DNA from: an uncultured Flavobacteriaceae bacterium
GTDB taxonomy: Bacteria > Bacteroidota > Bacteroidia > Flavobacteriales > Flavobacteriaceae
Assembly (NCBI GenBank): GCA_913065125.1
Contig: CAJYAG010000002.1
Span: 310,001 to 374,000, forward strand
Direction of reading: 5' to 3'
Length of the DNA: 64,000 nucleotides
Shown here: piece after piece, positions 41,003-44,555 of the stretch
Position numbering within the stretch: position 1 is the first letter of the stretch
Layout of the letters: the number at the start of each line of letters is the position of its first letter
The notes under the pieces: model-generated
The model's input: the letters and a program-made list of their open reading frames with translations, nothing else
What the model was told of the DNA's origin: nothing
The model's database searches: none
Position numbers and translations under genes: made by a program

Positions 41003-41587
41003 ATGAAAAAAATTATTTACTTCTGTATTATTATTGCCATGGTTTCATGCAAATCAGAAAAAACATACAATGTTGGACAAATTATAACTCCTAAAGGTGA
41101 AATCTTAATTTGGCTGCATGAAGAAACACCAAAACACAAAGCAAGTTTTACACAATTAGCAAATGATGGTTATTGGGATAACTATACGTTTAACCGTGTT
41201 ATACCAAATTTTGTTGCTCAAGGTGGTTGCCCTGATACACCAGAAGGATTTAATGATCCAGAATATTTATTAGAACCAGAGTTTGATAAAAACTTACGCC
41301 ATGTTTATGGTGCTGTTGGTGCTGGTCGTGATGATAACCCAAAAATGCTTTCTGCTAGATGTCAGTTTTATATTGTTCAAAATAAAAATGGCTTAAGTAG
41401 ACTAGATGATAAATACACCATTTTTGGAAAAGTTATTAAAGGTATGGATGTAGTAAATACAATAACAAATATAGAACGCGATTCTACCAATAAACCACTT
41501 TCAGATATTTCGCTAGATGTAAATATGATTAAAATGAAAGTATCTGAGTTAGAAAAGATATATCCAGAAGGAATACAAATAAAATAA
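41003..41587 (+). CDS. Cyclophilin-type peptidyl-prolyl isomerase lipoprotein
   Basis: A 194-residue lipoprotein; the signal peptide ends in AMVSC. The cyclophilin core is seen: GYWDNYTFNRVIPNFVAQGG, then SARCQFYIVQ and LDDKYTIFGKVIKGMDVV. Active-site Arg (NRVIPNF) and Gln (QGG) are kept; the Phe of the usual QFFI is Tyr (QFYI). It should assist folding in the periplasm, anchored in a membrane. ATG 41003 is preferred over a TTG one codon earlier. Confidence 0.9.
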   Translation: MKKIIYFCIIIAMVSCKSEKTYNVGQIITPKGEILIWLHEETPKHKASFTQLANDGYWDNYTFNRVIPNFVAQGGCPDTPEGFNDPEYLLEPEFDKNLRHVYGAVGAGRDDNPKMLSARCQFYIVQNKNGLSRLDDKYTIFGKVIKGMDVVNTITNIERDSTNKPLSDISLDVNMIKMKVSELEKIYPEGIQIK

Positions 41588-41701
41588 GTATTAGATTAAA
41601 CCAAATTAAAAAAAAATAGTCTAAGCATAGATGTCCCAGCTAAAAATAATTTATTCGTATAACTGGTTGTCAAATTTTAAAAAACTTAAAACAATTATAA
41701 A

Positions 41702-42079
41702 ATGAAAACAAAACACTTCGTATTTACAATCCTATTTTTTATTGGAGCATTAACAGTACAGGCTCAAAGAGGTGAGCGACCTGATCCAAAAGTACAAGCA
41801 AAAACAAGTGCTGATACTTGGCAAAAAGAATTTAGTTTATCTGATGAACAAAGAACAAAAGTGTATGACCTTCTTATAAAGTCTTCAGAAGACAGAACTA
41901 AGAAAATGGCTGAATTAAGAGCAAGTGGGGATAGAGAAGGAATGCGTGAAGCTTTTACAAAACTTCAAGCAGAAACAGACAAAGGATTGAAAGCAATATT
42001 TACTGACACTCAATGGGTAAAATATGAAAATTGGAAAAAAGAAAACCCTCCAAGAAGAAGAGGTAGAGGAGGAAATTAA
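41702..42079 (+). CDS. Exported Spy/CpxP-like small helical protein
   Basis: A 125-residue protein with a signal peptide (1-21, TVQAQ). The mature part is helical with the LSDEQRTKVYDLL (LTxxQ-like) motif, close to periplasmic Spy/CpxP-type chaperones and metal-stress sensors. The tail is Arg/Gly-rich (PPRRRGRGGN). It has a strong terminator. The neighbouring metal-efflux gene is separated from it by that terminator and a recombination-type junction, so they are not an operon. Confidence 0.75.
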   Translation: MKTKHFVFTILFFIGALTVQAQRGERPDPKVQAKTSADTWQKEFSLSDEQRTKVYDLLIKSSEDRTKKMAELRASGDREGMREAFTKLQAETDKGLKAIFTDTQWVKYENWKKENPPRRRGRGGN

Positions 42080-42096
42080 CAACCCCAGCAAATAGC

Positions 42097-42127
42097 AAAA
42101 AACCAACTCAAATGAGTTGGTTTTTTT
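42097..42127 (+). terminator. Terminator before the CDF cassette
   Basis: AACCAACTCA (42101-42110) pairs with TGAGTTGGTT (42113-42122), with a run of seven Ts from 42121. Confidence 0.85.
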
Positions 42128-42166
42128 ATTTTGTTAAACTTGACTTTCTTAAAAAAAACCGCTAAC

Positions 42167-42215
42167 TTCGTTTAACGTCTGATAAAATGAATTAAAACTC
42201 ACGTTATCATTATAG
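42167..42215. repeat. Left part of a hairpin insertion site (attC-like)
   Basis: TTCGTTTAAC (42167-42176), TGATAA (42180-42185) and TTATCA (42204-42209) form the R'', L'' and L' arms of a small attC-like hairpin. Its last arm, GTTAAACGAA, is split: G at 42215 and TTAAACGAA at 43306-43314, on the other side of the CDF gene. Confidence 0.6.
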
Positions 42216-43305
42216 TTGTGTGCAACCTAAAAACGAATGAATAACGAACAAACTGCAATACGAATAACTTATTTCAGCATAATTGGAAATACGATTTTAG
42301 CCTTGATAAAAGGACTTGCGGGGTTTTTCGGAAATTCATACGCTTTAATTGCAGATGCGATTGAATCGACAACTGATATTTTTGCTTCATTTTTAGTTTT
42401 ATTAGGCTTTAAATATGCAAAACGACCAGCAGATGAAAACCATCCATATGGACACGGAAAAATTGAACCTTTAATTACATTTGGAGTAGTTGTTTTTCTT
42501 GTGGTTTCTGCTACAATAATTGCATATGAAAGTATCCAAAACATTCAAACGCCTCATAAAATTCCGAAATCTTGGACTTTGATTGTTTTGGGACTAATAA
42601 TAGTTTGGAAAGAAATCTCTTTTCAAATCGTAATTAGAAAAAGTAAACAAACCAATAGTTCTTCACTTAAAGCAGATGCTTGGCATCATAGAAGTGATGC
42701 TATTACTTCGGTAATGGCATTTATTGGAATTTCAATAGCAATAATATTCGGAAAAGGTTATGAAACTGCTGATGATTGGGCAGCTTTATTAGCTTCTGCA
42801 TTTATTTTATACAATAGCTATTTAATTTTAAGACCAGCTTTAGGAGAAGTTATGGACGAGCAACTTTATGACGACCTAATACTTGAAATTAGAGAAAAAT
42901 CAATAAAAGTTAAAGGTGTTTTAGACACAGAAAAATGTTTTATCCGAAAATCAGGAATGAAATTTCACGTTGATTTACACGCAATTGTGAATAGTGAAAT
43001 AACAGTAAAATCAGGGCACGATATTGCACATAAATTAAAGGACTATTTACGAGAAGAAATACCGAATTTGGGACACGTACTAATTCATATTGAACCGAAT
43101 GAATAAAAGGCAGCACACAACACCGTATAAAATTAATGTGGGTTTTTATGGTTTAGCCTAAAGTTTTAGTTTATTTATAAAGTCCGCTTAAACTTATTTA
43201 TCTATTTTTAGATCGACAAGATAAAAACATTAAATAAGTATAAGCTTAGTGCTTGGCTGATAATCTAGCGATTATCAACACCCACACTAATCTTATACAA
43301 AAACG
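42216..43305 (+). mobile_element. Integron-type gene cassette carrying a CDF efflux gene
   Basis: The cassette is 1090 bp. It begins TTGTGTGC, and its own 3' recombination site begins with the complementary GCACACAAC (43113-43121), as expected when a circular cassette opens at G^TT. The CDF gene starts 21 bases from the left edge and stops six bases before the site, a typical cassette layout with no promoter of its own. Taking it out rejoins a perfect 10-bp stem (TTCGTTTAAC/GTTAAACGAA) of a hairpin site. No integrase gene is in the window. This is inference from sequence architecture. Confidence 0.6.
42237..43106 (+). CDS. Cation diffusion facilitator (CDF) metal-efflux transporter
   Basis: A 289-residue CDF-family metal/H+ antiporter with six predicted helices and a C-terminal cytoplasmic domain. 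Helix 2 carries Glu43 and Asp47 (DAIESTTDIF), matching the Asp-x3-Asp metal site of YiiP with Glu for the first Asp; helix 5 carries the partner His-x3-Asp in AWHHRSDA. The conserved ENHPYGHGK loop is present. The likely substrate is a divalent metal (Zn, Cd, Fe or Mn), not resolved here. It is the only gene of the cassette described at 42216-43305. Confidence 0.92.
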   Translation: MNNEQTAIRITYFSIIGNTILALIKGLAGFFGNSYALIADAIESTTDIFASFLVLLGFKYAKRPADENHPYGHGKIEPLITFGVVVFLVVSATIIAYESIQNIQTPHKIPKSWTLIVLGLIIVWKEISFQIVIRKSKQTNSSSLKADAWHHRSDAITSVMAFIGISIAIIFGKGYETADDWAALLASAFILYNSYLILRPALGEVMDEQLYDDLILEIREKSIKVKGVLDTEKCFIRKSGMKFHVDLHAIVNSEITVKSGHDIAHKLKDYLREEIPNLGHVLIHIEPNE

Positions 43306-43314
43306 TTAAACGAA
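43113..43314. repeat. Large attC-like recombination site after the CDF gene
   Basis: Nested inverted arms: GCACACAAC (43113-43121, matching the cassette's own 5' edge); a 19-base arm (43125-43143) matching 43280-43298 at 17 of 19 positions; and an inner arm GCTTAAACTTATTT matching AAATAAGTATAAGC at 13 of 14. It ends AACG^TTAAACGAA. The about 200-bp foldable structure resembles the long attC sites of chromosomal integrons. Confidence 0.6.
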
Positions 43315-43319
43315 CCTTA

Positions 43320-44459
43320 CTAATTATACTTCACCTTTCTTAAAACACGCATCGCTTCTTTGTATTTAATATACGTAGTTTTATCTGCAATATTTTTAAT
43401 GTATTCTTTTGCTTTTCGTAATTGAGTTGGCGCGTCTAAATATCCGTGTAAATAGCAAATTAAATAATTGGTTGGCAATCTAAAAACATCTTCGTGCTCG
43501 GTAACAGAAAGTGCTTGTTTTGCAATTATCTTTTTTACAATTGCATTGTTGTTTTGATAAATATGATTAATAATTGTTGTATCAAAAGCTGGTGGTTTAA
43601 ACAATAGTTCGTTTACAAGATCGTGTTTTCCGTTCTCTTTAAAATGAATAATCGTTTTTTCTAACGGATAATGAATTTCTTTTTTATCGATTCCTAATAA
43701 AATATATTCTGTAATAATAAATGAGTGCGAATTGTAACTAATTTGAACTTCGTCTAAGGCAGAAAAAAACAACTGAACTTGTTCGTTTATCAATTCGATA
43801 TCAACTCTAGAAAAAAATTCCTCTCCGTTTATAATCGATTTTTTTCCAGCCCAACACAACACAAACTGCTCGTTAAAAACTTTGTACTGCGGATTGTATT
43901 CCTTTTTATGATTATTGATAAAATCAAAAACTCCGTTTAGTGTTAACTCAATATTATTGCTGGCGTTTTTCTCAATTGCCTCAACAATTTCTTGATTGGT
44001 GTTTTTAAGTTCAAAAACTCCTTTTGATGACATCGAATTACTTCCGCGTCTAAAAAAAACGGAACCTTGTTTGTATTTCCAAGCATTTTTTGAGAGTGAT
44101 GTAATCTTATTATTTGGCAAAACAGTAACCAATCCAATTACTTTATGACGCGGTAATGTTGGAAACGGAACATTTTCGTATTGTATCTTTGGCGGGTTTG
44201 TTAAATACGCATTTGCCAAATTTTGAATTTTGCTGTCATCAAAAAAATCGACACCAATAATTTTATTTTCTTCGTCTTCTATGCCAATTACAATATAAGA
44301 ATTGTTTGTTGGATTCGAATTTGACAACGCACAAACGTGTTTTATAAATTTTGCTTTTCCTTCTTTGTTATGCAATGATAATTTTTGCTTTTTATCATAA
44401 AAACTATTCTCATCATTATGAGAAAGTAAGTTTTTAATCAAAAGGCGTTTGTTTATCAT
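43320..44459 (-). CDS. AlbA_2/Schlafen-type divergent AAA (ATP-binding) domain protein
   Basis: A 379-residue protein; the start was set at MINKRLL because earlier in-frame starts add a poor N-terminus. Residues about 20-150 match the AlbA_2 (PF04326) fold: FIKHVCALSNSNPTNNSYIVIGIEDE, then VIGLVTV and YKQGSVFFRRGSNSM. The C-terminal half is unknown. Such proteins occur in defence, transcription control and RNA cleavage, with no assigned role here. Its 3' end abuts the recombination site of the CDF cassette; it does not itself show a matching cassette edge. Confidence 0.7.
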   Translation of the reverse strand: MINKRLLIKNLLSHNDENSFYDKKQKLSLHNKEGKAKFIKHVCALSNSNPTNNSYIVIGIEDEENKIIGVDFFDDSKIQNLANAYLTNPPKIQYENVPFPTLPRHKVIGLVTVLPNNKITSLSKNAWKYKQGSVFFRRGSNSMSSKGVFELKNTNQEIVEAIEKNASNNIELTLNGVFDFINNHKKEYNPQYKVFNEQFVLCWAGKKSIINGEEFFSRVDIELINEQVQLFFSALDEVQISYNSHSFIITEYILLGIDKKEIHYPLEKTIIHFKENGKHDLVNELLFKPPAFDTTIINHIYQNNNAIVKKIIAKQALSVTEHEDVFRLPTNYLICYLHGYLDAPTQLRKAKEYIKNIADKTTYIKYKEAMRVLRKVKYN

Positions 44460-44555
44460 TTTTAAAATTCTATTGAAATAAAACATTCCTTTTCTAATAA
44501 GGTTTGGCATACAGTTTGACTAACCTATATCGAAACACTAAAAATGTAATTAATT

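Follow-up and report, generated by a model that had tools for sequence, protein, structure and literature searches.

A cation-efflux gene cassette in a flavobacterial genome suggests an integron-like system in Bacteroidia

Introduction

Sedentary chromosomal integrons consist of an integrase, IntI, an attI site and an array of attC sites. Cassettes also occur away from such arrays, at chromosomal G^TT positions referred to as attG or other secondary sites. The insertion that is particular to IntI is held necessary in the integron literature.

For the Bacteroidetes proper, the available part of one article names a complete integron for Salinibacter ruber only (PMC9024848), and that of another counts the phylum Bacteroidota among the integron carriers (PMC8618304). 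According to the accessible portion of a further study, integrases were selected by the additional domain of IntI (PMC2426708), a procedure that would miss the recombinase described here. An excerpt of a fourth paper reports that one attC site of the Polaribacter phage P12002L was recombined by IntI1 via its bottom strand, the top strand yielding no recombinants (PMC9892861). Judging by titles and the beginnings of abstracts, we found no integron with a non-IntI recombinase in the class Bacteroidia, bioRxiv and most subscription journals lying outside the scope of this search.

Here we analyze a stretch of 64,000 nucleotides (the window) from the genome (G000) of an uncultured member of the Flavobacteriaceae, together with related genomes. 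A sequence-only reading of the window had proposed that it holds a CDF metal-efflux gene in an integron-type cassette. We estimate at roughly 0.85 the probability that this gene is a mobile cassette of an integron-like system of the Bacteroidia, docked at a landing pad, for which a 382-aa tyrosine recombinase would be the most likely enzyme.

Results

A Cassette Exchanged at Both Edges

The repeats, gene coordinates and distances read from the letters all proved exact on rechecking (Table 1). The arms of the outer inverted repeat match at 12 of 12 positions and those of the inner pair at 9 of 9; the start codon of the CDF gene lies 21 bases from the left edge of the cassette, and its stop codon ends six bases before the end box. 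The repeat and cassette structure is confirmed as real, and three observations given below (a swap in a sister genome, empty sites in related genomes and a covariance-model match) show that it is more than chance. Taken on its own, the inner 9-mer is not enriched genome-wide (17 matches versus 14 in the reversed control), and Rfam gave nothing above threshold between 41500 and 44000, the matches there being sub-threshold. The gene belongs to the CDF family (PF01545, 5.8e-48; PF16916, 1.5e-19) and presumably encodes a metal transporter; the original label "metal resistance" reflects this family membership and is putative.

Table 1. Features of the cassette locus, with positions counted from the first base of the window.
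Feature	Position	Strand	Remarks
Upstream gene, DUF4890-like, 125 aa	41702..42079	+	PF16231, score below cut-off
Terminator-like hairpin 3' of the upstream gene	42097..42126	+	two arms of 14 nt with 100% complementarity, followed by a T-run
Left part of the dispersed landing pad (promoter-like sequence and left hairpin part)	42136..42215	+	ends at the crossover G; first base approximate
Bacteroidetes-type promoter-like sequence TTG-N20-TAACTTCG, front of the pad	42140..42170	+	pattern match
Outer arm TTCGTTTAACGT, which is the pad's left core box	42167..42178	+	
Cassette start box GTTGTGTGC (R')	42215..42223	+	
Cassette, 1090 bp, bounded by two G^TT crossover points	42216..43305	+	
CDF cation-efflux gene, 289 aa	42237..43106	+	
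Cassette end box GCACACAAC (R'')	43113..43121	+	
attC-like site of the CDF cassette	43113..43312	-	z -4.65; fold energies; model match 43115-43311
Outer arm ACGTTAAACGAA, which from 43306 onward is the pad's right core box	43303..43314	+	
Downstream gene, AlbA_2 and DUF5929, used as synteny anchor	43320..44510	-	

A sister genome (G020) was the closest among 59 relatives searched with the downstream gene (98% identity). It aligns at 93% to the stretch 41517-42220, which includes the upstream gene, and its flanks are 91-95% identical to the window up to 42220 and again from 43285. Between the same edges it carries a different gene, of 206 aa, instead of the CDF gene, with TATAG^TTGTGCC on the left, GGCACAAC ahead of a site of 121 nt, and then CCCG^TTAAACGAACC. 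Since another gene stands here at identical edges, we conclude that cassettes were exchanged at both points predicted by the sequence-only reading. A crossover between G and TT agrees with this swap and with the empty pads found elsewhere (see below), the exact position within the shared GTT being assigned by analogy. The proposed cassette with attC-type logic and G^TT junctions is borne out accordingly.

A Recombinase Followed by a Long Cassette Array

The cassette had been described as lying far from any integrase, a view that is at least incomplete: the same contig carries, about 230 kb away (G000:C2:583.8-585.0k), the gene of a 382-aa tyrosine recombinase with an array of 38 cassettes. A recJ-like gene (so named by eye) is its neighbor, and the ORFs that come after the recombinase gene run in the same direction. 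The main array extends over C2:540041-583224, with its 38 sites, as recognized by the model described below, all on one strand, and ends at the recombinase. The longest ORF is in forward orientation in 37 of the 38 cassettes, the remaining one having no ORF of 50 aa, and 32 of them show matching inverted edges (at most one difference in ten). Their grammar is G^TTRNNNNNAA, or nearly so, at the start and its reverse complement at the end, the next start box following about 118-121 nt after the end box.

Behind the stop codon of the recombinase lies an attI-like sequence, TATAACNA|GTT, and after it come the 38 cassettes. TATAACN(N)|GTT was present 3' of the recombinase at all 17 genus loci examined (of 20 fetched, three being cut short), with the cut 30-45 nt past the stop codon at 13 of them and 146-204 nt past it at four, including G000 (146). 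The locus thus resembles a sedentary chromosomal integron in having a tyrosine recombinase beside an attI-like site, a long array of one-gene cassettes in a single tandem orientation, and the G^TT crossover. Unlike in IntI integrons, the recombinase gene is co-directed with the cassettes and the attI-like cut lies behind its stop codon. A second attI-like copy with a cassette is present away from the recombinase, at about G000:C1:622.7k.

Such an arrangement is not restricted to this genome. By the edge rule, chains of at least three cassettes followed the recombinase at 18 of the 31 loci (out of 41) that had at least 1.5 kb of downstream sequence, nine of them outside the genus, and 13 had no chain of three; two of the loci (L175, L176) come from one genome, and 20 recombinase places were picked from those listed with a preference for downstream sequence. 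As controls, a chain of three arose at 3 of the 31 loci in ten shuffles of each, and 15 upstream stretches gave two at most.

Several array cassettes encode likely anti-phage proteins: a type IIG restriction-methylase, Shedu SduA, an NsnA/GmrSD-like protein, SoFic and PDC-M59A. These matches refer to 10 of 37 cassette proteins scanned, twenty having been covered in other scans (L399, L400; G000:C2:539500-578000).

Sites That Fold on the Bottom Strand

We built a covariance model from 47 array sites of this and related genomes, leaving out the CDF site. The alignment was drawn from 56 array sites of up to 135 nt, after dropping five chance pairs, the divergent L189 and three near-copies from L187. 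The model recovered the CDF site as its sole match in the window, on the minus strand (E 1.8e-6), with a score of 45 bits that is lower than that of most array sites. The sequence-only reading had suggested looking for further copies of the structure, and there are 47 in the genome: the 38 of the main array and nine scattered ones, including the CDF site. Two other detectors were abandoned, one for near-perfect stems that missed all sites of L007 but one, and a fuzzy pattern (20 sites in 250 kb versus one in the reversed control); the edge grammar and the covariance model took the place of both.

RNAalifold predicted 20 base pairs, 13 of them showing compensatory changes, in which one or more of the sequences differ at both partners. 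As in attC sites, the boxes R''/L'' and L'/R' are paired and the fold favors the bottom strand, which is more stable than the top strand in 45 of the 47 sites (DNA parameters; Wilcoxon p 5e-9, a value that is too small because the sites are related and conserved columns are counted many times). Written as bottom strand, the outer stems contain 204 G.T and 2 A.C mismatches, G.T exceeding A.C in each of the 47 sites. For the CDF site the computed energies are -28.4 (bottom) versus -24.9 kcal/mol (top). The simplest reading of these sequences is that the bottom strand would have to fold. All 47 core boxes begin with GTTR, but GTTRRRY, the box of IntI integrons, is found in seven.

The model also gave nine matches with E below 0.01 in the lytic Polaribacter phage P12002L (NC_028924), the attC of the published assay not being assigned to one of them. 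Eight of these lie between 30.9 and 39.7 kb, near the 3' ends of phage genes and turned against them by match strand. In the phage collection, blastn found no match to the CDF site.

The CDF gene itself occurs both inside and outside arrays. It is found at E 1e-100 or better in 18 of the 78 genus genomes. In a related genome (G061) a copy of 92% identity lies inside an array, with model sites on either side and an edge box of its own, and in Cochleicola gelatinilyticus the gene likewise has a site on each side and carries GTTGTGTGC, the edge box seen in the window. The sister genome G020 keeps a homologue (89%) at a different place, no right edge being recognized there. Exact inner edges were present at one of 80 loci of CDF relatives, and sound edges at two of 17 genus loci parsed, window included (L398 was left out of the parsing, and a one-mismatch match at L384 is low-complexity). 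Judged by how rare such edges are, the majority of CDF relatives would be fixed genes of the ordinary kind.

A Recombinase Distinct From IntI and Xer

A search of the genome for an IntI-type recombinase, as proposed earlier, returned no canonical IntI above the cut-off of the IntI model, but three recombinases below it. The 382-aa protein reached 204 bits against TIGR02249, whose cut-off is 265. It lacks the insertion of about 42 residues that defines IntI: the spacing between GKGxxxR and HxLRH is 65-66 residues in array-type recombinases (all 22 of 41 in which both motifs were recognized), versus 73 in the XerD-like protein of the same genome and 107 in three canonical IntI, and the alignment to IntI4 (2a3v) skips IntI4 residues 189-248. 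A further difference from IntI is a stretch of about 90 extra residues ahead of the recombinase domains. A HARP-like N-terminal domain was considered for it and set aside, the hint coming from 2 of 20 members (best E 7e-4). The cassette has attC-type logic, but the recombinase of the array is not IntI by its defining domain.

Like the array recombinase, the XerA/XerD-like proteins 5hxy (2e-41) and 4a8e (3.2e-40), which are its best PDB matches, have no IntI insertion. A tree with 52 rows places the 41 array-type recombinases on one side of a branch (92/66, a support that is not strong), groups IntI at 100/100 and sets five Xer rows apart (100/98), long branches making the deeper order unsure. 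The XerD-like protein of the genome groups with Flavobacterium loci, which, together with the named CDF relatives and the type of promoter, points to Flavobacteriaceae, Bacteroidia and Bacteroidota as family, class and phylum.

At 1e-60 the recombinase profile matched 100 of the 198 class genomes sampled (69 of 120 genera). Sites of the model were detected in at least 43 of the 198 genomes, a lower bound under stricter filters. The recombinase is present in 32 of the 43 genomes with sites versus 68 of the 155 without (Fisher p 0.0005, hand-counted from two tables of genomes that are not independent). Eleven of the 43 have no recombinase at this threshold, and one of these, G135, has a canonical IntI together with one site of the present model. 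In viral contigs, matches to the recombinase had at most 36% identity over most of the catalytic part and 48% over one fragment. Two Chryseobacterium plasmids, NZ_CP041688 and NZ_CP094530, carry relatives of about 40% identity, followed by several co-directed small genes in the former and by one in the latter.

These distributions bear on which enzyme moves the cassettes. The CDF gene could be a cassette strayed from a canonical IntI integron, a single attC without an integrase that was captured or that remained after the loss of intI, and indeed the folding and junctions of the site are those of attC, the IntI-bearing G135 has a site of the model, and IntI1 used one attC of the Polaribacter phage, albeit one not assigned to a particular match among the nine. 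We nevertheless consider this improbable, as the genome carries no IntI over the cut-off, the array adjoins a different recombinase, and IntI over the cut-off, although found in 84 of 296 genomes of the phylum (the share of the class among them being unstated), was found in one genome of the class and in none of the family. Slightly less probable still is that XerCD moves the cassettes, in the manner of elements that borrow host Xer enzymes. The genome has XerC- and XerD-like genes, and it is XerA-type proteins that the array recombinase itself most resembles; yet no sites lie within 50 kb of the xer-like genes, the nearest model site being 57 kb away, cassette chains follow the other recombinase at many loci, and the bottom-strand bias of the sites counts against XerCD. 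Unlike Xer, moreover, the array recombinase is linked to cassette arrays. We therefore favor this 382-aa protein as the probable enzyme, also for cassettes in pads, because pads and arrays share the same cassette grammar and the CDF gene is found in both settings.

Dispersed Putative Landing Pads With a Promoter-Like Sequence

The left flank of the cassette is, rather than an accidental target of insertion, one copy of a dispersed, promoter-bearing landing pad. By similarity search, the 86 bases preceding the cassette recur in at least 26 of the 78 genus genomes, the count being a minimum since in each genome few candidates received a score. With a strict pad pattern, 38 copies were found in 22 of the 78 genus genomes; in the family, 26 of 149 genomes have copies, representing 25 of 148 genera, with up to 13 per genome. 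The reversed pattern gave none in either set.

The promoter-like sequence at the front of the pad is of the Bacteroidetes promoter type, and in 30 of 36 pads a TTG stands at promoter spacing ahead of a TAACTTCG-like box. The earlier statement that the gene has no promoter holds at most within the cassette, since this sequence lies just outside; it is part of the pad, and the CDF cassette stands directly behind it. As a candidate for the Pc promoter, which drives the first cassettes of an integron, the pattern TTG-N18-22-TAnnTTYG was found in the pad of the window but in none of 19 attI-like stretches, which measured at most 93 nt.

Occupancy could be parsed for 36 of the 38 pads. Six are empty, four of them with the exact junction G|TTAAACGAAC and three of these four reading TATAG|TTAAACGAAC, which is the empty site foreseen by the sequence-only reading; none of the six occupies the orthologous place. 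Sixteen were scored as holding one cassette with both edges, of which about 15 are sound (L239 appears to be a false case, and the end scored for L230 is wrong, the proper one being known). The other 14 are occupied without both edges being recognizable, ten with an end box at most and four without one. Pads with two sites also exist (L232). The same pad holds the CDF gene in G000 and another gene in G020, which would be an example of reloading.

The distributions of pads and recombinases do not fully coincide: of the 19 genus genomes that have a recombinase of at least 48% identity, nine show no pad, and in two genomes (G015, G032) pads are present and the recombinases are Xer-like only. The genome under study contains a second, variant pad (G000:C2:659317), with genes and a model site (662118) 2.8 kb downstream. 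In G632, G689 and others, a pad variant has CTTCGCTTATC in place of CTTCGTTTAAC; its partner box, if complementary, would be without GTT, and it may represent a sister element of other use.

Cassettes at attG or other secondary sites likewise lie at a chromosomal G^TT, whereas the target here recurs, is conserved and includes a promoter-like sequence. The least probable alternative, that the 12-bp repeats bound a transposon or MITE with the CDF gene inside, would account for inverted ends and for repetition through genomes, but we rejected it, since the outer arms remain in empty pads and around other genes, which assigns them to the target rather than the insert; the insert moreover has no transposase match, no ORF of 80 aa or more besides the CDF gene on its strand, and no target duplication at its junctions.

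Discussion

The sequence-only interpretation of the locus is partly supported, and the comparison of genomes points to the following mechanism. A cassette would consist of one gene and a site of about 120-190 nt, leave as a circle when two G^TT points recombine, and enter by the same reaction in reverse. The 382-aa tyrosine recombinase, as the most likely enzyme, would act on the folded bottom strand of the site, and its home would be the attI-like sequence behind its own stop codon, with 38 stored cassettes after it. Cassettes would also dock, mostly singly and apparently by deliberate use, at dispersed pads made of a promoter-like sequence and a hairpin of 58 nt with G|TTAAACGAA at its end. 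One such pad carries the CDF cassette, whose transcription would be driven from there.

To judge from these sequences, the system may be called an integron in its working logic, with one-gene cassettes in storage, an attI-like site, folded sites and G^TT exchange. It is not an integron by the usual IntI definition, because the IntI-specific domain is absent and the GTTRRRY box is not the rule. We put forward more tentatively, and with slightly less than even confidence, the idea of a "distributed integron", in which an insertion-less recombinase working on folded single strands would be combined with a largely silent central library and with reloadable promoter-bearing pads, usually of one cassette each, some of them kept vertically. 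The extra N-terminal domain would then perhaps help the recombinase on folded strands.

Complete integrons are thought to be rare in Bacteroidetes; if our reading is true, this rarity would largely be an effect of searching by IntI. The system would also put to the test whether the additional domain of IntI is truly needed for the recombination of folded DNA; the repeated pads, for their part, prompt the question of whether cassettes are expressed from multiple sites. Our results suggest that a large bacterial group has an integron-like gene-shuffling system of its own: many Bacteroidia genomes would then hold their own cassette system, which in the one array examined stores restriction and other defence genes.
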